From Saccharopolyspora gloriosae (lineage in GTDB: Bacteria; Actinomycetota; Actinomycetes; Mycobacteriales; Pseudonocardiaceae), in the NCBI RefSeq assembly GCF_014203325.1, contig NZ_JACHIV010000001.1:4093501-4157500 (forward strand): DNA of 64,000 nucleotides, given 5' to 3'. Below, one piece after another: positions 26,324-43,156 of this stretch (the first letter of the stretch is position 1; each line of letters starts with the position of its first letter). The notes under the pieces are model-generated. The model worked only from the letters and a program-made list of their open reading frames with translations. It searched no databases and was not told the origin of the DNA. Position numbers and translations under genes: made by a program.

Positions 26324-26362
26324 GGGAGGATTCCGCCTTTCGTGGTCGTGCCGGCAGGGAGG

Positions 26363-28063: not shown

Positions 28064-28166
28064 CGTTGCGCGGACCCCAGCTTGCTTCGGTCCGGTGCCC
28101 GGTGACCAGCTCGTTCGTCCGGGAGACGCAGTAGGTTTGTCACCCGGTGATGAACAGGAGGCGCCC

Positions 28167-29345
28167 ATGAGCACGTCCGAACGGGTCCAGGTGGTCGATC
28201 AGGTCCGGTCCCGGCTGTCCGACCTGACCGATGCGACCCTCGACGCGGTCCGCACCGCCGTGCCCGCGTACCGGGACGTGCGCGGCGATCAGCTCCGCGA
28301 CGTCGAAGCGATCACCTCGTGGGTGCTGGTCCGGTTGCTGCGGGCGTGGGCGGAGGGCGGCGGTGTCCTCGACGACGCCGACCGCGGCCGGTTCCGCGGC
28401 ATCGGCGCCGCGCGCGCCGAGGACGGCCGCCCGCTCACCGCCGTGCTGCGCGCCTACCGGGTGGCGGCGGTCGCCGCGACCGACCACCTGCGCGAGCTCG
28501 GCCGCGGCAGGCTCGACGTCGACGACGTGGCCGACCTCACCACGGTGCTGCTCACCGCGTTGGACGACCTGTCCGAATCCCTCATGGCCGGGTACGGGGC
28601 CGCGCGCGACCGCCTCGGCGCCGACCTCGACCGCGCCCGTCGCGACCTGTTGGACGACCTGCTCGTCGGCAGGCAGTCCTCCGCCGGAGCGCTCGCCGAC
28701 CGCAGCCGCGAACTCGGCGTCGAACTCGCCCCGGAACCGTCGCTGCTCATCGTCGAATCGACCGATTCCGGTGCTGCCATCGAAGAATCCGCCGCCCACG
28801 ACCTGTTCGCGGACGCCGCAGCCCGGCCGCTGCTCACCCTGCACGGACCGCGCGCGGTGCTGCTCCTGAACGTCCGCCCCGGTCCCGAACTGGACGAGGC
28901 GTGCCGAGAGCGGGAATGGCGCGGTTGCCTCATCGTCGGCCACCCGATCACGGCCGTCGCCGCGAGCCACCGCCTGGCCGCCCACGCGCTCGACACCGCC
29001 CCCGCCCACTCGTTCCGCGACCGCGCCCTGCTCGACGAGGGCGACGCCCGCTTCCTGAGCGTGCTCGCGGCCCGCCCCGACGCGGACCCCGCCGCCGTGG
29101 TCCGCGCGGTCCTCGGCCCGATCGCCGCCCCGTCCCAACGGCACCTGCTCGACGGCCTCGCCGCGTTCCTGGCGGCCGACACGGTCACCGACGCGGCGAA
29201 CCGGCTGCACCTGCACCCGCAAACCCTGCGCTACCGCCTGCGCCGCGTCCGCGACCTCACCGGCCGCGACCCGCACGACCCGTGGCACCACCTCGTCCTC
29301 GCCGCCGCAGCACAACTCCACCGCCCGGACGGCCAGACCCGCTGA
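28167..29345 (+). CDS. PucR family transcriptional regulator
   Basis: A 392-residue regulator. The N-terminal ~170 residues are helical and resemble the RsbT co-antagonist/CdaR-like region (LRDVEAITSWVLVRLL, RPLTAVLRAYRVAAVAATDHLREL). A GGDEF-like middle follows, and the last ~60 residues are the PucR C-terminal HTH (DTVTDAANRLHLHPQTLRYRLRRVRDLTGRDPHDPWHHLVLAAA). ATG at 28167 follows AGGAGG by 6 bases. It is divergent from the FAD dehydrogenase gene and is probably its regulator. It ends 10 bp before a strong hairpin. Confidence 0.9.
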   Translation: MSTSERVQVVDQVRSRLSDLTDATLDAVRTAVPAYRDVRGDQLRDVEAITSWVLVRLLRAWAEGGGVLDDADRGRFRGIGAARAEDGRPLTAVLRAYRVAAVAATDHLRELGRGRLDVDDVADLTTVLLTALDDLSESLMAGYGAARDRLGADLDRARRDLLDDLLVGRQSSAGALADRSRELGVELAPEPSLLIVESTDSGAAIEESAAHDLFADAAARPLLTLHGPRAVLLLNVRPGPELDEACREREWRGCLIVGHPITAVAASHRLAAHALDTAPAHSFRDRALLDEGDARFLSVLAARPDADPAAVVRAVLGPIAAPSQRHLLDGLAAFLAADTVTDAANRLHLHPQTLRYRLRRVRDLTGRDPHDPWHHLVLAAAAQLHRPDGQTR

Positions 29346-29347
29346 CC

Positions 29348-29615
29348 ACGAGCGAAGGCCTACCTCGTGATTCACGAGGTAGGCCTTGAAGAAACCGGTG
29401 CGAAGTTGGCAGCGGCGGTTACGCACCCCGCTGGATGTGCGTGAGGAACGCCGACCACTGCGATGCCCCGAGGACGAGGACGCCACCGTCACGATCCTTC
29501 GTGTCCCGTACCGCGCACGCCCCATCCGGCAACGTGGCGATCTCGACGCAGTTGCCCGAGTTCCCGGTGTAGCTGGAAACCCGCCACGACAGCTGCGGCA
29601 GCTCAGATCTGGTCA
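29348..29615. repeat. direct repeat copy 1 (terminator plus DUF397 gene)
   Basis: About 268 bp that recur with few changes at 30483-30750. Each copy holds a perfect 33-bp hairpin and a complete DUF397 gene. The match ends at the DUF397 start codon; sequences outside are unrelated. The copies sit 1,135 bp apart in the same orientation and flank the creatininase gene. Confidence 0.85.
29355..29387. terminator. 16-bp perfect hairpin, copy 1
   Basis: AAGGCCTACCTCGTGA (29355-29370), a single T, then its exact complement (29372-29387). It lies between the convergent PucR and first DUF397 genes and can stop transcripts from both sides. An identical hairpin recurs at 30490-30522. Confidence 0.8.
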
Positions 29616-29616
29616 T
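29419..29616 (-). CDS. DUF397 domain-containing protein, copy a
   Basis: A 65-residue protein, nearly all DUF397 (LSWRVSSYTGNSGNCVEIATLPDGACAVRDTKDRDGGVLVLGASQWSAFL region). This family accompanies Scr1-like XRE regulators in actinomycetes, often as antitoxin-like or developmental partner proteins. The ATG at 29616 follows GGAG by 8 bases. It is about 90 % identical to copy b at 30553-30750 but is separated from the XRE gene by the creatininase gene. It lies inside the 268-bp direct repeat. Confidence 0.88.
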   Translation of the reverse strand: MTRSELPQLSWRVSSYTGNSGNCVEIATLPDGACAVRDTKDRDGGVLVLGASQWSAFLTHIQRGA

Positions 29617-29691
29617 TTCTGCGACTCCGAACAAGGATCCTGCATAGCCCGGCCCCCACCATATCGATCAGCTCGACGGACCCGTCGTGCG

Positions 29692-30426
29692 TCAGCGCTC
29701 GTCGAGCGCTCGCAGGTGTTCGTCGCAGGCGGCGACAAGGCTGTCCAGCGCCAGTTCGCCCTTGGCTGCGGAGGCTGCGGACGGCTGCCCGATCACGCCA
29801 TTGCCGCTGTATGCGTTCACTCCGGTGACCAGCAGGTGAGCTCGATCGTCAGCTCGGTGATCGGCGTCCTGGTATCCGTCGCCGACGAGCTCCGGGTGCG
29901 CGTGCAGGAGCAGCGATGTCTCGATCTCTCCGGCGTGCATGTCCTGATGGGCGTTCAAGACAGCACCGGCGGCGTCCCGTGCGCGCGTCCAGTCGTCGCG
30001 GCCGGGGAACAGCGCCACGCTCGGCTCGTCCACGTTGGCCTGCTGGGCGATGTTGGACAGCACGTAGTTGCCGCCGTGCCCGTTGACCAGGATCAGCTTC
30101 GTCACGCCGGACCTGCGCAGCGACGAGCGGATGTCGTCGACCATCGCGATCAAGGTGGCGGCGCTGATGCTGACCGTGCCGGGGAAGTCCTCGTGCTCGT
30201 GGGAGCAGGACACGGTGATCGGCGGCAGCAGGAACAGGTCGTAGTGCTCGGCGATGCGGTTCGCGATCAAGCAGGCGATCACGGTGTCGGTGATCAACGG
30301 CAGATGCCCGCCGTGCTGCTCGAAGCTGCCCACCGGCAACACCGCCACCCGAGCTCCACGAGCGGCTTCATCAGGCGAGGTCGCAGTGCTGAGCAGGTGC
30401 ACGCCGGTCTCCATCGGGCTCGTCAC
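29692..30426 (-). CDS. creatininase family protein
   Basis: A 244-residue metal-dependent amidohydrolase of the creatininase family. The two-metal site residues are in LPVGSFEQHGGHLPLITDT (Glu, His, Asp), VNGHGGN (His) and HAGEIETS (Glu). Members hydrolyse creatinine, or act in cofactor and RiPP pathways such as MftE. No mycofactocin genes are near. The GTG at 30426 starts 63 bp beyond the hairpin of repeat copy 2; an ATG at 30414 is an alternative, and no strong ribosome site supports either. The gene is boxed between two DUF397 repeats, so it may have arrived or been trapped there by a duplication. Confidence 0.85.
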   Translation of the reverse strand: MTSPMETGVHLLSTATSPDEAARGARVAVLPVGSFEQHGGHLPLITDTVIACLIANRIAEHYDLFLLPPITVSCSHEHEDFPGTVSISAATLIAMVDDIRSSLRRSGVTKLILVNGHGGNYVLSNIAQQANVDEPSVALFPGRDDWTRARDAAGAVLNAHQDMHAGEIETSLLLHAHPELVGDGYQDADHRADDRAHLLVTGVNAYSGNGVIGQPSAASAAKGELALDSLVAACDEHLRALDER

Positions 30427-30489
30427 GTCAACGTCGTCCGCAGGGTACGACTCAACCGGCGCCCGCGAAGCGCGCTCCACCGACGAGCG

Positions 30490-30522
30490 AAGGCCTACCT
30501 CGTGATTCACGAGGTAGGCCTT
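30490..30522. terminator. 16-bp perfect hairpin, copy 2
   Basis: Identical in sequence to the hairpin at 29355-29387, including the single-base T centre. It follows DUF397 copy b on the leftward strand and should end the XRE-DUF397 transcript before the creatininase gene. Confidence 0.8.
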
Positions 30523-30552
30523 GAAGAAACCGGTGCAAGTTGGCAGCGGCGG

Positions 30553-30750
30553 TTACGCACTCTGCTGGATGTGCGTGAGGAACGCCGACCACTGCGATGC
30601 CCCGACGACGAGGACACCACCTTCGCGATCCTTCGTGTCCCGGACAGCGCACGCCCCGTCCGGCAAGGTGGCGATCTCGACGCAGTTGCCGGTGTTGCCG
30701 GTGTAGCTGGAAACCCGCCACGACAGCTGCCGCAGCTCAATCCTGGTCAT
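30553..30750 (-). CDS. DUF397 domain-containing protein, copy b
   Basis: A 65-residue DUF397 protein located 27 bp downstream of the Scr1-like XRE regulator, the usual pairing of these families. The ATG at 30750 follows GAGGG. It is nearly identical to copy a, with differences such as Asn/Thr in YTGN(S/T)GN, Asp/Glu in DTKDR(D/E)GG and the last residues (IQRGA against IQQSA). It is probably the original partner of the regulator. Confidence 0.88.
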   Translation of the reverse strand: MTRIELRQLSWRVSSYTGNTGNCVEIATLPDGACAVRDTKDREGGVLVVGASQWSAFLTHIQQSA

Positions 30751-30777
30751 GACAGCGACCCTCACAATGCTCTCGGT

Positions 30778-31641
30778 CTACCTGTACTGGGACTTCACCT
30801 TACCGATCAGCTCTCGCGACTGATCAGGCGTGAGAGCCACGTTACGGAGACGCCGGTAAGCATTTGCGTGAGCTTCAATGACAGCCGCCTCCTCCGGGTA
30901 GTTCGCACCAGCGATGTCCTCGACGTAGACCACGGCACCCGTCGATTCGAGCTGGAGCACCACGAACGCGCTCTTCGCCATGAATGCGCCATCTGTACCG
31001 GCAGACGGACTCGGGCGGAACGGCAGGATGCGGAGTTCCAGGTTCGGCAGCGCAACCAGCTCTTCAAGCAGTCCCAACTGCTGTCGCATGATCAAGTCAT
31101 CACCGATCACTCTGTGCAGCGTCGCCTCGTGCAGGATGACGTCGACGTGCGGAGCGTCCGCTTTCATCAGGACGTCCCGTCGCCGAAGGCGAACTTCGAC
31201 CTGGCTATCCAGCTCTTGCCGCGACGCGAACGGATATCCCGCAGTCAACACCGTTCGCGCATACTCCTCGCACTGCAAGATTCCCGCGATCAGCTCGTTC
31301 TCGTAGATCGTGAGTGCGGACGCTTCGGACTCCAGGACCAGGAAGCGACGGAACCAGTCGGGAACGTTGTCCCGGTAAGTGCCACGCCGACGCGGCGTAG
31401 GCACTGCCGCGAGCCGAAGTGCTTCCGCAGCTTGAGAATCGTTGGCTTGGTAGAGCTCTAGCAGCTTGCCGACCTCGTCCGATTTGATGCTTTGCCTGCC
31501 GTTCTCCATCTTCGAGATCTTCGCCGTCGAACAGCCCAAGTGATCGGCAGCCACCGCAGCGGTCAATCGCTGCGTCTCGCGGAGGCGCCGGAGCAAGATC
31601 CCGAGCTGGATCAGTACAACTTGCGGGTCCTTCGCCGACAA
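30778..31641 (-). CDS. Scr1-like XRE family regulator (HTH plus DUF5753)
   Basis: A 287-residue regulator. The XRE helix-turn-helix is at residues about 10-70 (LGILLRRLRETQRLTAAVAADHLGCSTAKISKMENGRQSI). The rest is the DUF5753 domain (YENELIAGILQCEEYARTVL, HVDVILHEATLHRVIG, LPFRPSPSAGTDGAFMAKSAFVVLQL, YVEDIAGANY). I chose the TTG at 31641 because GGAG lies 7 bases upstream; an ATG at 31713 gives a longer, non-typical N-terminus. It forms an operon with DUF397 copy b. Such pairs affect development and antibiotic production in Streptomyces; the role here is unknown. Confidence 0.87.
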   Translation of the reverse strand: MSAKDPQVVLIQLGILLRRLRETQRLTAAVAADHLGCSTAKISKMENGRQSIKSDEVGKLLELYQANDSQAAEALRLAAVPTPRRRGTYRDNVPDWFRRFLVLESEASALTIYENELIAGILQCEEYARTVLTAGYPFASRQELDSQVEVRLRRRDVLMKADAPHVDVILHEATLHRVIGDDLIMRQQLGLLEELVALPNLELRILPFRPSPSAGTDGAFMAKSAFVVLQLESTGAVVYVEDIAGANYPEEAAVIEAHANAYRRLRNVALTPDQSRELIGKVKSQYR

Positions 31642-32066
31642 GATCGTCTCCTTCTCGCTCTGCCCGACGAGCCGCAACGACCGACTCGATCTGGGTTCAC
31701 CCATCAAGGGCATAGGTTACTCGAAACTTTCGCGTTACTGTCTCGTTGTCAGTCGCCGCGATGTTCACGCTATCTCACTGAACGTGTTCCCCGGCGAGCA
31801 CACCGTGCCAAATCCGCTCAGCGGCGCTGACTCGCTCTCCCCCGCCGGGCGGACCCCGACCGTTCGGCCGGGGTGCCCCGGCACCGGGCCGCTCCCCGGC
31901 TGGTGTCGGTGGCCGGGCCGTGTGACGTGCTCCCCCGAGCGTCACGGGCCAGCCCGGCCGCACGGCTCGTCTCCCGGTCGTGCGGCCGGGTCCGGCCGCA
32001 TTCACCAGGCCCTGCAACGCGAATCGCATTCCGGCGGTCCGCGAATACCGGACAGAACGGCGTCTG
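31642..32066. other. divergent intergenic region, 425 bp
   Basis: This holds the promoters of the XRE operon and of the rightward small-gene group. A less GC-rich part (about 31700-31780) probably carries the XRE promoter. A 12-base perfect hairpin lies at 31953-31990. No gene is supported here. Confidence 0.5.
31953..31990 (+). promoter_or_regulatory. hairpin in the leader of the small-gene group
   Basis: CCCGGCCGCACG (31953-31964) and CGTGCGGCCGGG (31979-31990) are perfect arms around a 14-base loop. It lies 77 bp before the first small gene. It could be an attenuator or a leftover terminator. Confidence 0.4.
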
Positions 32067-32324
32067 ATGACGACACGCGATTACGGACTTCCCTGCGCGT
32101 GGCACTACGACCACCGTCGCGGGATCACGCTGCGCTGGGGACGACCCGACGGCTTCTTCACCGTGCACGGCGGTGATCAGCGCGGCAAGCGCGGCGATCA
32201 CGCGCTGCTCGACACCGTTCGGGTCACCCAGGCCTGGCAGGACGAACTCGACGTCGCCCACAAGGCGCGTGAGTGGGCGCGCGCCAACCCACCTCGAAAA
32301 GCCACGACAGGAGAACACCGGTGA
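32067..32324 (+). CDS. hypothetical protein, 85 aa
   Basis: A short protein (WHYDHRRGITLRWGRPDGFFTVHGGDQRGKRGDHALLDTVRV) rich in Trp, His and Arg. Third codon positions are strongly GC-rich, supporting translation. I do not recognise the family. Its stop overlaps the start of the next gene (GTGA), so the two are translationally coupled. It is divergent from the XRE-DUF397 operon. The ATG at 32067 was chosen because homopolymer-free coding bias begins there; the ribosome site is weak. Confidence 0.6.
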   Translation: MTTRDYGLPCAWHYDHRRGITLRWGRPDGFFTVHGGDQRGKRGDHALLDTVRVTQAWQDELDVAHKAREWARANPPRKATTGEHR

Positions 32325-32737
32325 TGGATCGCGACCCCGACCGGCTCACCGCCCTCGACCTCACGGCGGAGCTGTCCGAGACCGAGCTGAAGATCGCCCG
32401 ATCGCTGATCTGCGGAAGGTCCAACTCCGAGATCGGCGCCGAGATCGACCGAGCCGAGGACACCGTCAAAACCGCGCTGCGCAAGACGTTCCAGAAGACC
32501 GGCGCCACGACCCGAGCCGCGCTGGTGACCTGGATGTACGAGTCAGGGCACGTCATTCCCGGCGCCGAGGACTTCCCCGGCACGCCAGTGCGCCCTGCGG
32601 TCCTCGTTCGCGCCGCCGAACCGCTGTTGACGACGATCACCTCGGACGACCCCGCGCAGGTGCCCCGAATCCGGCGGCGGATCGTCGAAGCGCGCGGCGA
32701 TCTGGCGAGGGCCATGGCCAGCCTCGGCAATCTCTGA
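32321..32737 (+). CDS. small LuxR-type helix-turn-helix protein
   Basis: A 138-residue protein. Residues about 15-75 form a GerE/LuxR helix-turn-helix (LSETELKIARSLICGRSNSEIGAEIDRAEDTVKTALRKTFQKTGATTRAALV). The C-terminal half has no known domain and no receiver domain is present. GTG at 32321 lies 7 bases after AGGAG and overlaps the previous stop; an ATG at 32324 is equally possible. It may regulate this gene group. A free-standing LuxR HTH without a sensor suggests partner-dependent or constitutive DNA binding. Confidence 0.7.
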   Translation: MMDRDPDRLTALDLTAELSETELKIARSLICGRSNSEIGAEIDRAEDTVKTALRKTFQKTGATTRAALVTWMYESGHVIPGAEDFPGTPVRPAVLVRAAEPLLTTITSDDPAQVPRIRRRIVEARGDLARAMASLGNL

Positions 32738-32738
32738 G

Positions 32739-33122
32739 ATGGACATCGGTCGCCGCCTTGCCTTGCGAGGCACTGACTTCGCTCGTCCCGAGCCGGTCCC
32801 GGCATCGGCGACTTGGGCCGCCGGGCCGACCGACGGCAAGTGGCACTGCGTCGAGCAGGACCGGTTCGGGTTCTTGCGGTGCTGGTGCGGTCATGACGTT
32901 CGCGGGCCGGTCCACCTGCGGCGCTTCAAGCCGCTCGACGGCTCCCGCGGCCGCACGATCTGCGCCGCGGGCGAAGCCGAAATCGCATCGGCCGCCGCGC
33001 CGAACCGCCTCTCCCCTGGACGCCTCCACTGGGACGAATGCCGCGCGTCAAGCACCTGGACGCACCGGCGCCAAGGGGTTCGTTCGCGAGGATTCGCCGG
33101 GGTCTTCGCGGGCTACGGTTGA
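32739..33122 (+). CDS. hypothetical protein, 127 aa
   Basis: The ATG overlaps the end of the preceding gene closely (one base after its stop). The first ~90 codons have good coding bias and include GKWHCVEQDRFGFLRCWCGHDVRG, with a CxC plus distant Cys that could be a small metal site. The last third is less convincing and could reflect a frameshift or a wrong stop. No family is recognised. It ends 50 bp before the ATP-grasp gene. Confidence 0.42.
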   Translation: MDIGRRLALRGTDFARPEPVPASATWAAGPTDGKWHCVEQDRFGFLRCWCGHDVRGPVHLRRFKPLDGSRGRTICAAGEAEIASAAAPNRLSPGRLHWDECRASSTWTHRRQGVRSRGFAGVFAGYG

Positions 33123-33172
33123 TTTCACGACGCCAACGAGAACCGAATACGCGACCGATGGAGGAACGGCCC

Positions 33173-34408
33173 ATGCCCGAATCTGCCATCAAGGACCCGA
33201 ACAAGGGTTACGTAGCGCTCCTCGGCTGGAGTCTCAACGCGGTGGAAGCCCTCGACCGGTTCGACCGGCGCTACGTCGTCGTGGCCCCGGACTGGATCGA
33301 GGAGTACTGCTCAGAACACGACATCCCGTACGTGAAGTGGAACTTCGAGCGGCTCAACGACCGTTCCATGGAGATCGCGGAGATCCTGCAGGAGGAGGGC
33401 GTGGACGTCGCGATCCCGCTGTTCGAGGAGACCGTGGAGTGGGCGGGCGCGATCAACTCCGTCCTGCTGAGCAACCCTCGCCTGCTGGGCCAGTCGATGC
33501 TGTTGCGGGACAAGGCCTTGATGAAGCGCCGGGCGCAGCTGGGCGGCATCCGGGTCGGGATCTTCGAGGAGGCCCACGACCGGGACGACGTGATCCGGTT
33601 CCTCAAGCGGGTCAACCAGACGCTGCTCAAGCTCGACGGGGACCCGAACGATCCGATCCACGTCAAGGCGTTCGACAAGGCCGGGTGCCTCGGGCACCGC
33701 GTGATCCGCACGCCCGACGAGATCGACGCGATCCCCGACGAGGAGTTCCCGGTGCTGATGGAATCGCACCTGGACGGCTGGGAATTCGCCGTCGAGGCGT
33801 GGATTCACAACGGGAAGATCATGTTCCTGAACATCTCCGAGTACGTGACGCTCGGATACTCGGTGTTCGTCCCGGCGACCCCGGCCCTGGAACGGTACCG
33901 GCCGCAGATCACCGAGCAGATCGAGAAGCTCATCAAGACCTTCGACATCGATTTCGGTTTCGTGCACCCCGAGTACTTCGTCACCAGCGACGGCGAGATG
34001 TACTTCGGCGAGGTCGCCTACCGGCCACCGGGGTTCAAGGTGTTCGAGCTGCTGGAACGGGCCTACGGGTTCAACGCCTACCAGGGCTTGGCGCTGGCCT
34101 TCGACCCGAAGACGACCGAGGAGGAGATCGAGGCGTTCTTCCCGCGCGAAGTCGTCGACGCCACCGGGGTGGCGGGCTGCTTCGGCGGGTACCCGCGCCG
34201 CCGGGTCGTCAGCGAACTGCAAGTCCCGGAGGAGACCGAGGACGACGACTACTATGAGTCGCACGACCTCTCGGCCCCGCAGGAGGAAACGGTGACGAAG
34301 CGGACCGCGTTCGGCACCCACTGGGGCCTGGTGTACTTCTTCGGTGACGACCCCCACCGGATGCGCGACCTGTTGAAGCGGCAGGAAGAGCTCGACTTCT
34401 ACGTCTGA
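33173..34408 (+). CDS. ATP-grasp domain protein (putative carboxylate-amine ligase)
   Basis: A 411-residue ATP-grasp enzyme. An N-terminal pre-grasp Rossmann-like domain (residues 10-100) precedes LLRDKALMKRRAQLGGI (111-126), the ATP lysine region HVKAFDKAG (163-171), the glutamates of VLMESHLDGWEFAVEAW (194-210) and the metal/phosphate residues in GFVHPEYFVTSDGEMYFGEVAYRPPG (262-287). The usual E-x-N is E-V-A here. The family joins a carboxylate to an amine or thiol through an acyl phosphate. ATG at 33173 follows GGAGGAAC. The next gene encodes a papain-like protein 30 bp away, so the pair probably makes and trims or transfers a peptide-like bond. Confidence 0.85.
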   Translation: MPESAIKDPNKGYVALLGWSLNAVEALDRFDRRYVVVAPDWIEEYCSEHDIPYVKWNFERLNDRSMEIAEILQEEGVDVAIPLFEETVEWAGAINSVLLSNPRLLGQSMLLRDKALMKRRAQLGGIRVGIFEEAHDRDDVIRFLKRVNQTLLKLDGDPNDPIHVKAFDKAGCLGHRVIRTPDEIDAIPDEEFPVLMESHLDGWEFAVEAWIHNGKIMFLNISEYVTLGYSVFVPATPALERYRPQITEQIEKLIKTFDIDFGFVHPEYFVTSDGEMYFGEVAYRPPGFKVFELLERAYGFNAYQGLALAFDPKTTEEEIEAFFPREVVDATGVAGCFGGYPRRRVVSELQVPEETEDDDYYESHDLSAPQEETVTKRTAFGTHWGLVYFFGDDPHRMRDLLKRQEELDFYV

Positions 34409-34438
34409 GGGCGCAGGAGAACCAACCGAGGGAAGCCC

Positions 34439-36466
34439 TTGAAACCGACCGTCGACGTCACGGGTGCGGCCACGACGCTGGACAAGCGCGTGGTCTCGCT
34501 CGACGACGCCATCCGGGCCATGGCCGAGACCCGCGATTTCGGCAAGCACGCGAAGCTGCGGCGAGTGCTGGAGGCGCTGCGCCGCGTCCTGCGCCTGCCC
34601 GGCGGGCCCGCGGCGGTCCAGGCCAGGGCGCAGGCGCTGGAAGAAGCGGGCCTGTTCGGCGGGACCGACTGGGCATCGCCGGAGATCCTCATCCCGTCGC
34701 TGGCCGGGCCGGGCCTGCGCTGCGGCGACGCGGACACGGTGGTGATGGAGGCGACCAGCGAGCTGCGGCTGCTCGCCGTCGCGCGCGGCGAATTCGAGCA
34801 CCCGACGCTCGCCGCCGACGACGCGCACCAGTTCCTGTCGCAGGTGCTCGCGATGAACCTGGAGCTGCTGTTCACCCCGCCGAACGAGGCGGAGCGCAAC
34901 GCGCAAGGCCGGAACGCGCAGCTGATCCGCGACCTGTTCCGGCACCTCGCCGACGGCGTCGGCTACGACGTCGTGCTGGACCGGCTCGTCGACGAGATCT
35001 GGCGGATCCTGCGCCAGCGACCGATCCAGGTCGACCAGGTGCAGTCCCTGATCACCCGGATCGCCGTCTACCGCGGTGACCCGGACGTCGACCTGGGCGC
35101 GTCGACCGGCCAAGGGCTCGACCGGCTGATCACCAGCCTGTTCGGGACGACCGAGGCGTGCCGGGACGACCCGGGCGTCGAGGTGTTCCGCTCCCGGCTG
35201 GAAGCGATGGACACCAGCGCGCTGCAGTACGAGGCCAGCGGTTTCGCGCGCGCCATGCACGACACCGGCCTGGTGTCGCCGTACCACGCCGAGCTGCTGC
35301 GGTTCCTGCTGCACGAGAGCGACTACCTCGTCGGCGAGGCCCTCGGCTTGTCCGACACCGGGCGCAACTGCCACCTGCGCTACCGCGACGTGGTGCACCG
35401 GCTGGTGGAGGAAGCGGTGCACCCGCAGACCGCGCAGTGCGTCTACGGGCTCGCGCTGCTGCTCGACCGCGGCGTGCTGCACGAACCACCGGTGGTTCCG
35501 GCGCTGTGGCGCCAGCTCGCGCTGGAACTCTCCCCCGTGGCGCGGGAACGGCTGGTGGCCGTGTTCGGCGACCAGCCGAGCCCGGAGGCGCGGTTGACCG
35601 CCGGCGTGCTGTCGATGCTGGGCCAGCCGCTCGGCGTCGGGCAGGGTGACAACCCGACCTGCCAATCGGCCCGCGCGCTGTCGATGTGGGCCTACAACGA
35701 CCCGGACTACCTGCTGCAGATCGTGGTCTGGGCGGCGCGCGACGACGAGATCATCGTGCACTTCGAGGGGCAGCCGATCTCCTCGAAGGACAGCGCCTCC
35801 GGAGTCGCCACCGCGCTGCCCTCGGACCTCGACCCCGTGTCGTCCGTCGTCGTCCCCCACCTGGACCGGATCTACGCCGAGATGGGCCGCCGCTGCGCGG
35901 ACCGCCCCGGCGACCCGCACCGGTGGGTCAACCCCGAGTTCCACGGCTGGTGGGCCGGGCGCGGATTCTGGATCAACGTGGACGTCGCGACCGGGAACCT
36001 CATCGACCTCGACGAGTTCCTGCGGCGCTTCCACGCCGGTTACCACCCCGACTACAACGGCGGGCGACCGCTGATCCACCCGCAACCCGCCGGGATCGCC
36101 GTCACCGACAGCGCGGCCCGCTACGTCGGCTGGCACGCGATCACCATCCTGCGCGTCGCGCCGGATCCGCAGGACGTCGTGCGGGTGTACTTCTTCAACC
36201 CCAACAACGACAGCGGGCAGGACTGGGGCGACGGCGTCGTCGTCTCCACCGCGGGCAACGGGGAACGGTTCGGCGAGGCGTCGCTGCCGTTCGACCAGTT
36301 CGCCTCACGGGTCTACATCTTCCACGTCGACCCGCTCGAACGCGGCGAACCGGAGCGGGTTCCCTCGGCGGACGTCGCCCGGATCATCGGCTACCTGGAG
36401 CGCAGCTGGGGCCGAGACCGGCTCTCACCGGGCACCTTGCAAGCCGCGGAGGCCCCGCAGAGCTGA
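34439..36466 (+). CDS. uncharacterised 675-aa protein with a papain-like Cys-His-Asn pattern
   Basis: Residues 1-390 are mostly helical and not recognised. From about 395 a papain-type order appears: Gln403, Cys408 in GQGDNPTCQSARALSMW, then His566 in GWHAITI, and Asn587 in VYFFNPNND. Spacing resembles cysteine peptidases or transglutaminase-like transferases (Gln five residues before Cys, Asn 21 residues after His). WINVDVATGNLIDLDEFL and a Trp-rich segment lie between. The TTG at 34439 follows GAGGGAAG. It is in one transcript with the ATP-grasp gene. It might transfer or cleave a peptide that the ligase builds. No signal peptide is visible. Function is inference. Confidence 0.75.
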   Translation: MKPTVDVTGAATTLDKRVVSLDDAIRAMAETRDFGKHAKLRRVLEALRRVLRLPGGPAAVQARAQALEEAGLFGGTDWASPEILIPSLAGPGLRCGDADTVVMEATSELRLLAVARGEFEHPTLAADDAHQFLSQVLAMNLELLFTPPNEAERNAQGRNAQLIRDLFRHLADGVGYDVVLDRLVDEIWRILRQRPIQVDQVQSLITRIAVYRGDPDVDLGASTGQGLDRLITSLFGTTEACRDDPGVEVFRSRLEAMDTSALQYEASGFARAMHDTGLVSPYHAELLRFLLHESDYLVGEALGLSDTGRNCHLRYRDVVHRLVEEAVHPQTAQCVYGLALLLDRGVLHEPPVVPALWRQLALELSPVARERLVAVFGDQPSPEARLTAGVLSMLGQPLGVGQGDNPTCQSARALSMWAYNDPDYLLQIVVWAARDDEIIVHFEGQPISSKDSASGVATALPSDLDPVSSVVVPHLDRIYAEMGRRCADRPGDPHRWVNPEFHGWWAGRGFWINVDVATGNLIDLDEFLRRFHAGYHPDYNGGRPLIHPQPAGIAVTDSAARYVGWHAITILRVAPDPQDVVRVYFFNPNNDSGQDWGDGVVVSTAGNGERFGEASLPFDQFASRVYIFHVDPLERGEPERVPSADVARIIGYLERSWGRDRLSPGTLQAAEAPQS

Positions 36467-36649
36467 GCCCCAAAAGGGTCCACTGTGGATGATCCCGATG
36501 GTCGTGTCCGTGTCGGCGCGATCGACGCCGGAGATCGCAATGGCGGAGGGATCGGCCACTTGCGCGCACGCCCGCTCGACCGCTGAGCGCGGATCGGCGC
36601 GAGAACGCCCCGGTCGGCGCAGGTGACCGGCGGGGACGACACTGATCGC

Positions 36650-37069
36650 ATGCGACAACGAGTCAGCATGATCACGCTCGGCGTGGCGGACCTGGATCGC
36701 GCGCGGCGCTTCTACGCCGCGCTCGGATGGCGCCCCTCTGCCGCGCCGAGCGACGACATCACCTTCTTCCAAGCCGGGGACATGGTCCTCGCGCTGTGGG
36801 ATCGCACCCGGCTCGCCGAGGACAGCGCCGTCGAGGACGCGCCCGGCTGGGGCGGGGTCACCTTGGCGCTCAACCTCGGCTCCCGCGAGGAAGTGGACAC
36901 GGCGATCGACGAGGCCCGCCGCGCCGGAGCCACCATCGGCCGCGAACCTGCGGAGACCTCCTGGGGCGGCTACAGCTCGATCTTCCTCGATCCGGAAGGC
37001 CATCCCTGGGAGGTCGCGTACAACCCCTACTGGCCCCTCACGGAAAACGGCGGAGTGAAGCTGCCGTGA
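36650..37069 (+). CDS. VOC (glyoxalase/dioxygenase fold) family protein
   Basis: A 139-residue vicinal oxygen chelate protein with the two beta-alpha-beta-beta-beta modules: VSMITLGVADLDRARRFYAALGWRPS and the end IFLDPEGHPWEVAYNPYW. The ATG at 36650 was preferred over a GTG at 36623 since the family starts at this point. It stands alone. VOC proteins include glyoxalases, bleomycin-type resistance proteins and ring-cleavage enzymes; the sequence does not show which. The last FLDPEGHPWEVAY motif holds the usual metal-binding Glu. Confidence 0.87.
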   Translation: MRQRVSMITLGVADLDRARRFYAALGWRPSAAPSDDITFFQAGDMVLALWDRTRLAEDSAVEDAPGWGGVTLALNLGSREEVDTAIDEARRAGATIGREPAETSWGGYSSIFLDPEGHPWEVAYNPYWPLTENGGVKLP

Positions 37070-37304
37070 CGGCAAGCGAGAACGCGTAGCGCAGCCCCGG
37101 AAAGCCGTGGGCACCGAGGAATTCGTTGGCCTGAAAGAGAGTTGGCTCTCGCCGCGGCCACCTGGTGCTGCCCCGGAGCCGCGGATCGGAACTCCGGAAA
37201 TCCGCCCATGGCACGAGCCGATCCTGCTAGCGTGTCGGCCGCGCGCGGATCGACTCGAAAGTCGATCAGCCGCAATTCACTGGGGAACTGAGGGGTTGGC
37301 AACA

Positions 37305-38297
37305 GTGTTCGACAAATCATCGCGCTTCATCGCCGTCGTGTCCTCGACCGCGCTGATCGCGCTCGCCGGGCCCGCCGCCGGCGCACAGGCCGCTGAAGGC
37401 GGCGAAGCTAAGGGCGCCAAGGACGTTCCCGTCTACTTCGTGCACGGCTACGGCTACGAGGACTACGACGGGGACGGGAAGGAAGAGAAGGGCAAGGACT
37501 GCTCCAAGACGTGGGGTTCCGCGCTGGACTACTTCAAGGAACAGGGCTGGGACGAGGACAAGCTCATCACCGTGGGCTACTACCCGGACGACAAGTGCGA
37601 CGTGGACATCAATCCCGCCGACGAGTCCGACGCGACCCGCGACACCAAGATCCAGTACGTCGCCCAGGACCTGGCCGCCTACATCAAGAAGAAGCACGGC
37701 GACCAACCGGTCAACATCGTGGCCCACTCGATGGGCGGGCTGATCACGCGCACCGCGATGTTCGGCCACGAGCACTGGGGCGAGCAGAAGTTCCCGAAGA
37801 TCAACGTCGATCAGATCGTCACCCTCGGCACACCGCACAAGGGCGTGATCTGCAAGGGCTCGTGCACCGGCACGACCCAGTGGCAGCAGATGGACCCCGG
37901 CTCCAAGTTCATCGAGGTGCTGCACGACTACAAGCTGACCGATGACTGGGCGAAATCGACGGACTGGAGCTTCGTCGGCTCCAACCAGGACGAGACGGTC
38001 AACGGGAACTCGGCCATCGACCTGGACCACCACGCCGACCACAAATACCGGTACTGGGACGGCAACCGGGCGCCGTCCAACGACGCCTGCAAGGGCCAGG
38101 AGCCGCTGGTCACGCACTGCGGCATCCGCACGCTCAAGAACAACGGCGAGAACCCCGACGGCGATCCCGGCGACGCCGACGGCGACTACAACCTCAACTA
38201 CTGGAACGCCGACGACGGCAAGCGCCACGAGACCCGCAGCGGATGGGCTCCGCTGAAGACCGCGGCCCTCGCCATCTCGCGGGGCGACGACGCCTAG
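37305..38297 (+). CDS. secreted lipase/esterase-like alpha/beta hydrolase
   Basis: A 330-residue extracellular hydrolase. The signal peptide is at residues 1-26 or so (FIAVVSSTALIALAGPAAGAQAA). The mature part starts VPVYFVHGYG, with the HG oxyanion loop, and contains NIVAHSMGGL with the nucleophile Ser and VTLGTPHKG. Aspartate-rich loops YEDYDGDGKEEKG and NPDGDPGDADGDYN resemble calcium-binding loops. Four or more Cys may form disulphides. The GTG at 37305 follows AGGGG by 9 bases and directly precedes the signal peptide. It is a lone gene ending at a strong terminator. LipA-like triacylglycerol lipase is the closest analogy. Confidence 0.85.
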   Translation: MFDKSSRFIAVVSSTALIALAGPAAGAQAAEGGEAKGAKDVPVYFVHGYGYEDYDGDGKEEKGKDCSKTWGSALDYFKEQGWDEDKLITVGYYPDDKCDVDINPADESDATRDTKIQYVAQDLAAYIKKKHGDQPVNIVAHSMGGLITRTAMFGHEHWGEQKFPKINVDQIVTLGTPHKGVICKGSCTGTTQWQQMDPGSKFIEVLHDYKLTDDWAKSTDWSFVGSNQDETVNGNSAIDLDHHADHKYRYWDGNRAPSNDACKGQEPLVTHCGIRTLKNNGENPDGDPGDADGDYNLNYWNADDGKRHETRSGWAPLKTAALAISRGDDA

Positions 38298-38318
38298 TTG
38301 CACGCCCCCGGCAGCGAC

Positions 38319-38355
38319 GCGGCGGCCCATCCGGCATCACCGGATGGGCCGCCGC
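38319..38355 (+). terminator. strong stem-loop after the lipase gene
   Basis: Perfect 16-base arms GCGGCGGCCCATCCGG (38319-38334) and CCGGATGGGCCGCCGC (38340-38355) around a 5-base loop, 22 bp after the stop codon. It also lies downstream of the convergent NB-ARC gene. Confidence 0.8.
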
Positions 38356-38407
38356 GCTGTTCGACGTCAGCGGTCGAGCGCCCGCTCCCCGTCCTCGCGC
38401 AGGGCAG

Positions 38408-40792
38408 TCACTTTCCAGATTCGTTCACATCACCGGCATCACCCTGCCAGCGGGCCAGGTCGTCGCGCGTGCGCCGCGTGTCGGGGTGCTCAGAACCGAG
38501 CACCCGGAGCCGATCAGCGAGCAGAGTTGCGAACCCGTCGACCGCACCCGCCGCATCACCGGCTTCACCGCGCCAATGGGCCAGGCTGTGCCGAGTGGAC
38601 AAGATGGAGGGGTGATCCGGACTGAGTACCCGGCTCTGGTCGGACAACACGTCCTGAAGTTCTGCGACCGCACCCTTCGCGTCCCCGACTCGACCTCGCC
38701 AGTAGGCAAGGTTGTGCCTGGTGATCAGGACGTCCGGATGACTCGGACCGAGCACGCTGGACTCATCGGCGTACAGTTCCTGAAATTCCGCGACCGCACC
38801 GGCGGCGTCACCGGATTTCCCGCGCCAGTAAGCAACATCGTTGCGAGTCATCAGAGTCCTCGGGTGATACGGGCCGAGCACGCGAAATTGATCGACCAGC
38901 AATTCTTCGAGCTTCGCGATCGCGTCCATCACATCGCCGACCTTGCCTAGCTGGTTGGCCAAGGTACGGCGGGTGGAAAGGGTGTTGAAGTGGTCCGAGC
39001 CGAGCGACCTGCATTCATCGGCCAGCAGGCCCTCGATGTCGACGATCGCCGCGCCTCCTTCCTCCGTACTGCCCTTCAAATAGGCCAAGTTGTGACGAGT
39101 GGTCAGAGTATCGATGTGCTCCTGGCCGAGCCGTTCGGTGCTCTCTGCGAGCAATTGTTCGTACTCGGCGACCGCCTTCGCCACATCGCCGACCGCCTCC
39201 CGAAAGCGGGCCAGCTCGTGGCGAGTGTAGAGAGTGTCGATGTGGCCGACACCGAGCACTCGGGATCGATCGGTAAGGAGGTCCTCGAGTTCCCCGACAG
39301 CCCCTGCCGTATCTCCGGATTCACCGTGCCAGCAGGCGAGGTTATGGCGGATGGCCAGGGTGTCCGGATGATCCGGGCCGAGCCGCTGCATAGCGTGAGA
39401 TCGGAGGGCTGTGAAGTACTCGGCGGCTTCGGTGACGCGTCCTGCCGCGCCTCTGCTGTTGCCGGCGCGGGAGAGCACGGGGTGCCAGAGCCGGGTTCGC
39501 CGGTGGAGCGTGTCGGTGTTCGTGCGCAGGACCTGTCCGTATTCGGTGTCGCGTTCGATCTGCGGCCATGCGCTCATGAGAGCGTCGGCGGCGGCGTGGG
39601 CAACGATGGCGAGCTGTTCGTCTCCGAGCCGATCACGGGTGGATCGCTGGACGAGTTCGTGGATTCGAACGCTGCGATGGGGGTCGTCGGAGTCGACGAT
39701 GACCAAGCTGAGGCGATTGAGGCCGTGCAAGGCCTCCCGTACGTCCTCAGCCTCGACCGGCTCTGCAGCACCGAGCCTGGTAGCGAGATGCTCCAGGACC
39801 GCCGGAGCGGTCAAGACCGCATCGGGGATGCCATTGGGATCGAGTACGGCGGCGAGCTCCAGCACGGGCAACGCCAGCCCGGCGGGCGCCAGTTGGTCGG
39901 CCAGTTCCATCGAGAGCGACCACGTGGCGGCCAGTGTGGCACGGTGGTCGTCGGGCAGGCTCTCCGGCTCGGGCACTACTTCGTGCAGTCGTCTGCGTTG
40001 ATCCACGAACCGTTGCAGGTATGCGGCGCAGGTCAGCTTCCGGTCGGTGAGGTAGGCAGCGGCCTGAGCCAACGCGACGGGGAGATACCCGAGCTCGGCC
40101 GCAAGTTCGGCGGCGCCGTCGGCCGACGCCGAGCTGTCAGCCAGCTTGGTACGCAGGTAGGCGGTTGCTTCGACCGCGGTGAACGTGCCGACTTCGATCA
40201 GGTGGCCGCGACGGGTGAGGGCGGCATCTCGGCGACGAGTGGTCACGACCACGCGTCCGGTCAGCTGTCGCGGTGGCCACAGCCCACGCAGGTCACTCGG
40301 CTTCTGCACGTCGTCGAGAACGATCAGCCATCGACGGTCGGTGGCAGCCAACCACTCCAGGAAACGGTCGCTCGCTTCCTGGTCGTCCCGTTCGCCAGCG
40401 CTCTGACCGATCTTCACCGCCGCCGTGGCATAGCTCGACACGATCGCTTCCTGCGCCGCCGCCGTAATCCACACCAGCAGGTCGACCTGTCCGGTATCCC
40501 ACATCAGACGTGCGAACTCAGCCACGAGCTGCGTCTTGCCCGCACCACCCATCCCAGCGAGCACCGCCGTACTCCCGGCACCAATGGCATCGGCCAACGG
40601 AGCGCTCAGATCGCGCTCCTGAAAGCGGTCGGCACCCAGCGGCACCACCCCGACCCGGCACGGCCACCGCACTTCCGGTGCGTGGTGATGATGCACTCCT
40701 CCCACGTAGGCATCACCGTGAACGCTCGCGGCTTGAACGGCATTTCGGACCGCACCGCTGATTTCGTTGGAGGTGCCCAAGGGCTCAGCCAT
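38408..40792 (-). CDS. NB-ARC ATPase with C-terminal tetratricopeptide repeats (STAND protein)
   Basis: A 794-residue STAND-type switch protein. An N-terminal ~40 residues (ISGAVRNAVQAASVHGDAYVGGVHHHH) resemble the short adaptor seen on actinomycete NB-ARC proteins. The NTPase has Walker A GMGGAGKTQ (80-88), Walker B LIVLDD (about 156-161) and sensor VVTTRRRD. A winged-helix region follows. The last ~340 residues are eight tandem 42-residue TPRs built on LGxxHPDTLxTRHNLAYWRGxxGDAAGAV. Such proteins oligomerise on ligand binding and act as signalling or antiphage sensors. No effector domain is fused and no partner is adjacent. ATG 40792 was chosen because the adaptor starts there. Confidence 0.88.
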   Translation of the reverse strand: MAEPLGTSNEISGAVRNAVQAASVHGDAYVGGVHHHHAPEVRWPCRVGVVPLGADRFQERDLSAPLADAIGAGSTAVLAGMGGAGKTQLVAEFARLMWDTGQVDLLVWITAAAQEAIVSSYATAAVKIGQSAGERDDQEASDRFLEWLAATDRRWLIVLDDVQKPSDLRGLWPPRQLTGRVVVTTRRRDAALTRRGHLIEVGTFTAVEATAYLRTKLADSSASADGAAELAAELGYLPVALAQAAAYLTDRKLTCAAYLQRFVDQRRRLHEVVPEPESLPDDHRATLAATWSLSMELADQLAPAGLALPVLELAAVLDPNGIPDAVLTAPAVLEHLATRLGAAEPVEAEDVREALHGLNRLSLVIVDSDDPHRSVRIHELVQRSTRDRLGDEQLAIVAHAAADALMSAWPQIERDTEYGQVLRTNTDTLHRRTRLWHPVLSRAGNSRGAAGRVTEAAEYFTALRSHAMQRLGPDHPDTLAIRHNLACWHGESGDTAGAVGELEDLLTDRSRVLGVGHIDTLYTRHELARFREAVGDVAKAVAEYEQLLAESTERLGQEHIDTLTTRHNLAYLKGSTEEGGAAIVDIEGLLADECRSLGSDHFNTLSTRRTLANQLGKVGDVMDAIAKLEELLVDQFRVLGPYHPRTLMTRNDVAYWRGKSGDAAGAVAEFQELYADESSVLGPSHPDVLITRHNLAYWRGRVGDAKGAVAELQDVLSDQSRVLSPDHPSILSTRHSLAHWRGEAGDAAGAVDGFATLLADRLRVLGSEHPDTRRTRDDLARWQGDAGDVNESGK

Positions 40793-40981
40793 GTGATCAG
40801 TATGACAACTCCGACAAAGCGCCACCTTAGGATTTCCTGGACGAGGCCTGAGTTCCGCGTCCCTGATCCAAAGACCTTCGGGAGAAGACTCCAACCTGCT
40901 TACGTGGCTCGGGCACCTGTTGAGGCTGCGGGCAACGCCCCGGCCCGGTGGGGCGCCGACGGATCGGCGCCCCAGCGGTGC

Positions 40982-43156
40982 TCAGTCCTCCAGCAGGTCC
41001 TCGATGGTGATCGGGATGTGGCGGATTCGGGTGCCGGTGGCGTTGAAGATCGCGTTGGCCACCGCGGCGGCCATGCCGACCGCGCCGATCTCGCCGACTC
41101 CGCGCGCGCCGACCGGGTTGTGCAGGGTGTCGGGGTGCTCGACGAAGTGCACGTCGATGTCGGGGATGTCCGCGTGCACCGGCAGCAGGTAGCCGGCGAA
41201 GTCGCCGTTGGCGATGCGGCCGTTCGGTTCGACCTCCATGCCCTCGTGCAGCGCCGCCGACACGCCCCAGATCATGCCGCCGCTGAGCTGGCTGCGGGCG
41301 GCCTTCTCGTTGATGATGCGGCCCGCGTCGAACACGCCGAGCAGCCGCGACACCCGCGCCTCCCGGGTCCAGCGGTGCACCCGGACCTCGCAGAACTGGG
41401 CGCCGAACGAGCTGAACGAGTGCTTCGTCAGCTCCTCCCCCGGCGCCGAGGACCCGGTGGCCGATAGGGAATCCCGGCCCACGGCCCGCAGCAGCTCGTC
41501 GAACGGCATGCTCCGGCCGTCGGCGAACAGGTGCCCGTCGGCGTAGGTGACCTCGGCTCCGTCGAACGGTGCGCCCGGCTCGGCCGCCAGCTCCAGCAGG
41601 GAGTCGAGCACCGCGGAGGCGGCGACCATCACGGCCGAACCCGCGCTGGCGGTGGCCGTGGAACCACCGGACATGCCGCCCGGCGGCAGCGACGAGTCAC
41701 CCAGCCGCGGCGTGACCCGCTCCGGCGCGATGTCCAGCGTTTCGGCGCCCACCAGCGACAGCACGGTCAGCAGGCCGGTGCCCGGGTCCGCGCCGCTGGT
41801 GGCGACCTCGGCCCCGCCGTCCGCCCCGAGCGTGACCCGCACCGAGGCGGGGAAGCGCAGCGCGGGGAACATGGCGGTGGCCGTGCCGACCCCGACCAGC
41901 CAGTCGCCGTCGGTGCGCCCGGCCGGGGTGCGCTGGTCCCAGCCGAAGCGCTGCGCGCCGATCCGGAAGCAGTCGTCGAGGTACTTGCTCGACCACTGGA
42001 GGTCTTTTCCGGGCGGTGCCAGCGAATTGTTCCGCAGCCGCAGCTCGATCGGGTCCATCTCCAGCTTCACCGCGAGCTCGTCGATCGCGCTCTCCAGCGC
42101 GAACGAGCCGGGCGCCTCACCGGGGGCGCGCATGAACGTCGTCGGCGGCAGGTTCAGCGGCACCATCTTCTGCCGCAGCGACAGGTTCGGCGTGGCGTAC
42201 CACTCGCGCGAGGTGCCGTGCGAAGTCGGCTCCACGAACGAGCGATCCGCGCCGGTGCTGCACCACGAGTCGTGGCGCACCGCGGTGAGCGTGCCGTCCA
42301 CCTCGGCGCCGAGCGAGACCTCCTGCACCGTGGCCGCGCGGCCCGCGGTCGCGGTGAACACCTGCTCGCGGGTCAGCGACGCCTTCACCGGCCTGCCGAG
42401 CTCCCTGGCCGCTGCCGCCGCCAGGAACGCGGGCGCGGAGGTGCGGCCCTTGCCGCCGAACGCGCCCCCGACGTACGGGTTCACCGCGTGCACCTGGGAC
42501 GGGTCCAGCCGCAGCGCCATCGCCAGCTCCGCGGCCTGCATGTCCGAACCCTGGCTTCCACTGTGGACGGTCAGACCCTCGGAGTCCCACCGGGCGACGG
42601 CGGAGTGCGGTTCCATCGGGGCGTGGTTCTGCGGTGCCGTCGAATAGGTCTCCGCGACCACCACCGCGCTGGCCGCCAGCGCGTCCTCGATGGACTCGAC
42701 GCCGTCGGCGAGGATGTCCAGCGAGGGGCCGCCGCCGTGGTCGGAGGAAGGCGCGTCCTCGGCGCCCGCGAGGCCCTCCTCCAGCGAGGTCAGCGCGGGC
42801 CGCTCGTGGTAGGCGACCTCGACCAGCATCGCCGCGTCGCGGGCCTGCTCGAAGGTCTCGGCGACCACGAAGCCGATCGGCTGCCCGTAGTAGGCGACTT
42901 CCTTGTCCTGCAGCGGAACCCACGTGTCGCCGAACGCCGGGAGCGTGGGCGTGGCCAGCTCCAGCGGGTCGAACGGCGAATACGCCCCGAGCACGCCGGG
43001 CGCGGCGCGGACCGCGGTGAGGTCCATCGACGCGATCTCGCCGTGCGCGATGGTGCTGAGCACGAGATATCCGTAGGCCATGCCGGGGAAGTTGTGGTCC
43101 ACCCCGTACTTGGCGCGACCGGTGGCCTTCACCGGCCCGTCGAGTCGGCTGGGCAT
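40982..43156 (-). CDS. molybdenum hydroxylase large (Moco) subunit, PaoC/XdhA-like
   Basis: A 724-residue molybdopterin-cytosine-dinucleotide subunit of the xanthine oxidase family. It begins RLDGPVKATGRAKYGVDH, has the Moco motifs VGGAFGGKGRTSAPAFLAA and FMRAPGEAPGSFALESAIDELA, and ends with the catalytic glutamate Glu689 in GVGEIGAVGMAAA. Its length matches PaoC-type subunits. Start ATG 43156 overlaps the stop of the FAD subunit (TGATG). It is the last gene of a three-gene operon. It probably oxidises aldehydes or N-heterocycles with electrons passing to the iron-sulphur and FAD subunits. No Tat signal is seen, so it is cytoplasmic. Confidence 0.92.
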   Translation of the reverse strand: MPSRLDGPVKATGRAKYGVDHNFPGMAYGYLVLSTIAHGEIASMDLTAVRAAPGVLGAYSPFDPLELATPTLPAFGDTWVPLQDKEVAYYGQPIGFVVAETFEQARDAAMLVEVAYHERPALTSLEEGLAGAEDAPSSDHGGGPSLDILADGVESIEDALAASAVVVAETYSTAPQNHAPMEPHSAVARWDSEGLTVHSGSQGSDMQAAELAMALRLDPSQVHAVNPYVGGAFGGKGRTSAPAFLAAAAARELGRPVKASLTREQVFTATAGRAATVQEVSLGAEVDGTLTAVRHDSWCSTGADRSFVEPTSHGTSREWYATPNLSLRQKMVPLNLPPTTFMRAPGEAPGSFALESAIDELAVKLEMDPIELRLRNNSLAPPGKDLQWSSKYLDDCFRIGAQRFGWDQRTPAGRTDGDWLVGVGTATAMFPALRFPASVRVTLGADGGAEVATSGADPGTGLLTVLSLVGAETLDIAPERVTPRLGDSSLPPGGMSGGSTATASAGSAVMVAASAVLDSLLELAAEPGAPFDGAEVTYADGHLFADGRSMPFDELLRAVGRDSLSATGSSAPGEELTKHSFSSFGAQFCEVRVHRWTREARVSRLLGVFDAGRIINEKAARSQLSGGMIWGVSAALHEGMEVEPNGRIANGDFAGYLLPVHADIPDIDVHFVEHPDTLHNPVGARGVGEIGAVGMAAAVANAIFNATGTRIRHIPITIEDLLED

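Follow-up and report, generated by a model that had tools for sequence, protein, structure and literature searches.

A linked ATP-grasp ligase and papain-fold protein as a candidate two-gene amide module in Saccharopolyspora gloriosae

Within a 64,000-nucleotide stretch of the Saccharopolyspora gloriosae genome (contig NZ_JACHIV010000001.1, positions 4,093,501 to 4,157,500; hereafter the window), a gene for an ATP-grasp enzyme and a gene for a 675-residue papain-fold protein form a tightly linked two-gene unit. Both open reading frames (ORFs) lie on the + strand with 30 bp between them, as a preliminary description made from the DNA letters alone had reported (Table 1). The reading we prefer, though we give it slightly less than even weight, is that the pair constitutes a self-contained module: an amide, with a small molecule as substrate, would be made by the ATP-grasp enzyme and hydrolysed or transferred by the papain-fold enzyme.

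The linkage holds at every locus retrieved. A genome scan yielded at least 534 confirmed relatives and 595 candidate stretches, of which the best 80 were fetched, so that this set leans to close relatives. The ATP-grasp gene is directly upstream and on the same strand in all 80, with 27-126 nt separating the end of its match from the start of the next. At L034 a contig end truncates the ATP-grasp match and at L058 that match falls in two pieces; four loci (L037, L057, L058 and L074) were excluded from alignment A3. The locus filed under Cyanobacteriota, L076, is labelled as a Rhodococcus bin.

The two genes also co-occur across genomes, in line with the functional pairing that the preliminary description had proposed. 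Of the findings on homologues that this description had named as refuting it, varying catalytic residues (see below) and genes that do not co-occur, neither was observed. The papain-fold gene was found in 4 of 396 Actinomycetota genomes and 11 of 398 Pseudomonadota genomes, and the ATP-grasp gene in the same 4 and the same 11. Pooled, the samples contain 15 genomes that have both genes and 779 that lack both, and in none is one gene present alone. Of the 15, G000 and G396 are the genomes around which the samples were drawn, chosen as carriers of the pair. Both samples were searched with the same two profiles, the identity of the samples between runs being read from their equal handles and counts, and at most three (A1) or four (A2) candidates were scored per genome. 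In the family to which the window belongs, the papain-fold gene is present in 14 of 150 genomes; among the 6 same-genus genomes listed, 2 have it.

The second protein has no recognisable relatives in the libraries searched: Pfam, NCBIfam, PADLOC, PHROGs and the sequences of the PDB gave no match. A family profile run against the PDB sequences returned five weak matches (E-value 0.06 or higher), none of them a cysteine protease, and a second profile run returned none. The viral fold library likewise gave no match to the family at an E-value of 0.001; papain-named giant-virus proteins were among the weak rows of that search. Cys408, His566 and Asn587 stand in papain order as first described, while the accompanying glutamine is residue 402 and not 403. 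Gln402 thus lies six residues ahead of Cys408, as in papain. None of the four varies among the 40 domain sequences compared (from the window protein and 39 chosen relatives, with whole-protein identity down to about 50%), and Cys408 is the sole cysteine among the listed invariant columns. Because of this invariance, the order of the three catalytic residues is beyond what chance would give, and a chance arrangement was rejected.

The predicted structure points in the same direction. The available text of PMC10318531 describes papain-like topology as a cysteine at the N-terminus of the core helix, a histidine on the following strand and a polar residue at the next strand, and in the AlphaFold model of the 675-residue protein (Table 1) the Cys helix, the His strand and the Asn follow in this order, a correspondence at the level of secondary structure, with residues 399-407 at a predicted local distance difference test score (pLDDT) below 50. 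Together with the conserved catalytic residues expected of the papain-like superfamily, the model supports a papain-type active-site arrangement in a family that is unnamed in the libraries searched. In nine divergent copies the catalytic part is better kept (58-65% identity over residues 366-640) than the N-terminal part (42-51% over residues 14-365), as would be expected with a fixed substrate. The helical N-terminal half probably recognises the partner protein or the substrate.

Table 1. Coordinates of the gene pair, its predicted domains and catalytic codons, and the block shared with a same-genus genome
Feature	Position in window	Strand	Basis or remarks
Block common with same-genus genome G900, elsewhere in chromosome	33157..36484	+	87% DNA identity
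ATP-grasp carboxylate-amine ligase-like protein, 411 aa	33173..34408	+	PF13535; profile matches 4dim, 3vot, 4wd3
Papain-fold protein, 675 aa, TTG start	34439..36466	+	AlphaFold model, pLDDT 79.7, predicted template modelling score (pTM) 0.70
Predicted N-terminal helical half, residues 1-395	34439..35623	+	AlphaFold model; faster evolving
Predicted papain-type catalytic domain, residues 396-640	35624..36358	+	
Gln402 codon, putative oxyanion-hole position	35642..35644	+	Invariant 40/40
Cys408 codon, putative nucleophile at the start of helix 408-420	35660..35662	+	Model and invariance
His566 codon, within strand 562-575	36134..36136	+	Model and invariance
Asn587 codon, just past strand 581-586	36197..36199	+	Model and invariance

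The ATP-grasp ORF begins with ATG, 8 nt downstream of a GGAGG ribosome-binding-like site, and third-position GC is 0.93 in this gene and 0.95 in its partner. Its product matches PF13535 with an E-value of 5.9e-6 and 26.4 bits, slightly below the curated cut-off of 27, and the family profile finds the solved L-amino-acid ligases 3vot (E-value 0.0026) and 4wd3 (E-value 0.0071) over residues 188-305, a very remote similarity. The protein itself changes little: it is 83-93% identical among loci L003-L082, which span two phyla, and the mean column identity of its alignment is 90%. Its AlphaFold model reached a pLDDT of 48, for which the input alignment was probably too uniform. The highest 19-residue hydrophobicity means of the two proteins (1.2 and 1.0) do not reach the level of a membrane helix, so both proteins are probably cytosolic. 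Rfam and tRNA scans of the window returned nothing, and the upstream footprints of five groups of loci contain no clear shared operator.

No third gene accompanies the pair across the loci compared, and no biosynthetic neighbour recurs widely. Apart from ORFs overlapping the pair, the commonest gene cluster occurs around 22 of 81 loci, at scattered positions and on both strands, and the commonest Pfam families occur in 5 of the 130 nearest neighbours (alignment A4; 130 of 135 listed neighbours, prefiltered by coding score and length). Peptides of at least 20 aa were common to at most 7 of 80 regions within 1.2 kb upstream and at most 7 of 79 within 1 kb downstream, in a search that very short or fast-changing peptides could escape. 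The loci that share such peptides belong to Nocardia, joined downstream by Mycolicibacter, and longer neighbouring genes match there as well. Some lineages do keep local neighbours of the pair: a gene for a TlyA-like rRNA methyltransferase follows it in five Pseudomonadota regions (L146-L150, cluster c2), the copy at L148 (10918-11676) scoring just under the TIGR00478 cut-off. A possible link to ectoine was rejected: an ectoine synthase neighbours the pair at L003, the first and only scanned member of its neighbour family, and that family lies outside the 25 commonest.

In some Pseudomonadota a divergent version of the pair is found in which the two genes stand head to head on opposite strands (L139, L143, L145 and L153), with a small ORF between them at L139. 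That linkage has been kept through this rearrangement speaks for a functional tie. Copy numbers in these bacteria weigh against a strict one-to-one partnership. Papain-fold copies number five plus a fragment to two ATP-grasp copies in genome G472 and four to two in G576, copies that surfaced once all candidates were scored; the ratio is three to three in G540 and one to two in G452 and G716. In the stretches read, solitary papain-fold copies occur at L136, L137, L140 and L142 and solitary ATP-grasp copies at L152 and L154, with a further one at a contig end (L151). Some copies may share a partner. Two of the papain-fold paralogues without an adjoining ATP-grasp gene (L137 and L142) lie near one gene for a GCS2-like ligase and one for an AstE/AspA-like hydrolase, which may be a second pair that makes and breaks an amide. 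As a link to the present system this was rejected, since no such cluster recurs around the loci, though not every canonical locus was checked.

Comparison with related genomes points to a two-gene unit that can sit at different chromosomal places. In the same-genus genome G900 the alignment extends no more than 16 bp upstream of the first gene and 18 bp downstream of the second, and thus covers almost only the pair; when 19.5 kb around that copy was compared with positions 26001-43000 of the window, the match was restricted to the same block, and the G900 match to the right flank of the window lies about 116 kb from its copy of the pair. The papain-fold gene of G900 is split in two frames (G900:C1:3600347-3602337, in L174), by sequencing error or decay. 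Genome G936, which lacks the pair, can be aligned with the window as far as 29809 and again from 36496, with 162 bp between, so that some 6.7 kb with the pair inside is absent there. A quick tree of 42 papain-fold proteins nests the Streptomyces copies within those of Pseudonocardiaceae, which fits transfer between orders. Pattern scans found no copy of the pair in viral contigs. Searches with the papain-fold protein alone found no match in phage records and one in 72,556 plasmid records, a 1.8-Mb record of Halomonas sp. PA16-9 (L087, NZ_CP040452.1) whose alignment falls in two pieces, suggesting a frameshift.

For the reaction itself we rely on analogy. In an enzyme of papain type the cysteine picks up an acyl group, which is then handed on to water or to some other acceptor. 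According to the available part of PMC6920838, ATP-grasp ligases convert a carboxylate to an acyl phosphate, which is then coupled to an amine, and L-amino-acid ligases make dipeptides through such phosphates. In the module we propose, which is the simplest role the two could share, the ATP-grasp enzyme, a carboxylate-amine ligase resembling L-amino-acid ligases, would use ATP to activate a carboxylate and couple it to an amine. The same amide or acyl group would then be handled by the papain-fold enzyme, a specific amidase or acyl transferase, whose predicted triad is Cys408-His566-Asn587 and whose oxyanion hole would contain Gln402. We infer the reaction, the order of its steps and the small-molecule nature of the substrate. 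Most likely, the substrate is a small metabolite that Actinomycetota and Gammaproteobacteria have in common; given how mycothiol and glutathione are distributed across these groups, it would be neither of these thiols alone. Of the amide-making and amide-cleaving or -transferring pair first suggested for this locus, the linkage and the papain-type arrangement stand, and the chemistry is kept as the best reading.

Four other explanations deserve consideration. We regard it as unlikely that the pair writes and erases a protein modification, in which case the ATP-grasp enzyme would attach an amino acid or short peptide to some protein of the cell and its partner would remove or trim this addition. 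The large predicted helical half of the papain-fold protein is of a kind that may bind proteins, and proteins can be substrates of ATP-grasp ligases (the available part of PMC6920838 names RimK). The high conservation of the ATP-grasp protein would fit a conserved protein target. However, the pair has no linked candidate target, its sporadic distribution in both genome samples is ill-suited to modification of a core protein, and conservation is lower in the N-terminal half than in the catalytic part.

Less probable still is a single two-subunit enzyme, a new amidotransferase-like complex in which the papain-fold protein would free an acyl or amino group and hand it to the ATP-grasp protein. 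Co-occurrence and tight linkage are consistent with such a complex, as is the fact that the two proteins diverge in step (Pearson 0.87, 91 rows), a correlation that shared ancestry alone can produce. The unequal copy numbers and unlinked copies in Pseudomonadota argue against it, and we know of no amidotransferase subunit with a papain fold.

A route to a peptide natural product or to a ribosomally synthesized and post-translationally modified peptide (RiPP), with the precursor or a carrier protein encoded nearby, seems to us very improbable. In its favour, BtrH acts in butirosin synthesis. Its family, named as a transacylase in the available text of PMC2922099, has a papain-like fold, and graspetides are made by ATP-grasp ligases (PMC8939145, in the part available). 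The neighbourhood comparison runs counter to this route: no conserved precursor peptide was detected beside the ligase in the regions compared, which argues against membership in a graspetide or RiPP cluster, and the natural-product route with a linked precursor that the preliminary description had entertained is not borne out.

The fourth explanation, an anti-phage or other defence module, likewise raised at the outset, we consider the least probable: the distribution is patchy, with presence and absence between close relatives, and an NB-ARC/TPR protein is encoded nearby, but neither protein matches any PADLOC family, the criterion used for known defence systems, at an E-value of 10, the ATP-grasp protein is 83-93% identical across two phyla, the 25 commonest neighbour families hold no defence gene apart from general ATPase domains, and the viral, phage and plasmid searches gave the single match reported above. 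The NB-ARC ATPase in question has TPR repeats, measures 828 aa and lies at 38408-40894 on the - strand. Proteins of this type are often tied to signalling or defence. Its gene appears to be absent from G936, in which the matches to window positions 37074 and 40975 are about 290 bp apart.

Further upstream, the window contains a direct repeat (29348-29625 and 30483-30759; 54 nt identical, then 223 nt at 91%) whose copies carry a DUF397-type gene (one copy scanned) and flank a creatininase-family gene at 29692-30510. The same 33-nt near-perfect palindrome, perhaps a terminator, lies in each copy.

Returning to the proposed small-molecule amide module, its strict pairing, the lack of any other conserved partner and the unnamed second family make it a compact entry to an unknown metabolite or modification. 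It would give the papain fold a new family and provide a new example of an enzyme that makes amides coupled with one that breaks or transfers them. A broader proposal, which we think possible but doubtful, is that this is a new papain-fold family dependent on its own ATP-grasp ligase, the two genes forming a horizontally moving module that makes and remodels (or makes by relay between the two enzymes) an undescribed amide-linked metabolite used by high-GC Gram-positive and gamma-proteobacterial species. A literature search of titles and the beginnings of abstracts found no description of the pair, and a 2009 survey of amidoligases, which lay outside that search, may list it. The combination of an ATP-grasp ligase with a papain-fold partner is an idea already known; the papain-fold family itself is what lacks a name in the libraries searched.

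Among known systems, calpain and papain cysteine proteases (C2 and C1) share only 10-13% identity with the papain-fold protein. None of 30 family members scanned matched a papain-family Pfam entry, PF00648 being absent at an E-value of 10, and hhalign gave probabilities of 7.6% and 0.8% against two bacterial C2 domains and 0.4% for an unrelated control, with a query profile of low diversity (effective number of sequences, Neff, 1.8); these results speak against membership in calpain family C2. The L-amino-acid ligases BL00235 and RizA resemble the ATP-grasp protein over the profile-matched region described above, by sequence similarity only, and the available part of PMC6920838 mentions no papain-fold partner for them.

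Two systems come closer. The glutathionylspermidine synthetase/amidase of E. coli (GspSA), like the proposed module, couples an amide synthetase to a papain-fold cysteine amidase: the amide formed by an ATP-grasp-type synthetase is undone by a CHAP amidase joined to it. In the available text of PMC10318531 the E. coli enzyme (2IO7) is counted among CHAP proteins. Unlike GspSA, the pair consists of two separate proteins, the papain-fold one with a long helical N-terminal half, and neither matches the corresponding Pfam families (CHAP and Gsp-synthetase) at an E-value of 10; no relation was detected between GspSA and the ATP-grasp protein. The second is BtrJ/BtrH of the butirosin pathway, in which BtrJ is the ATP-grasp loading enzyme and BtrH a papain-fold acyl transferase, a combination that the pair would resemble. 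In contrast to BtrJ/BtrH, the pair has no conserved carrier-like short ORF beside it and its papain-fold protein is without any Pfam match. The best reading of these comparisons is that the pair may work like GspSA or BtrJ/BtrH while being a member of neither.
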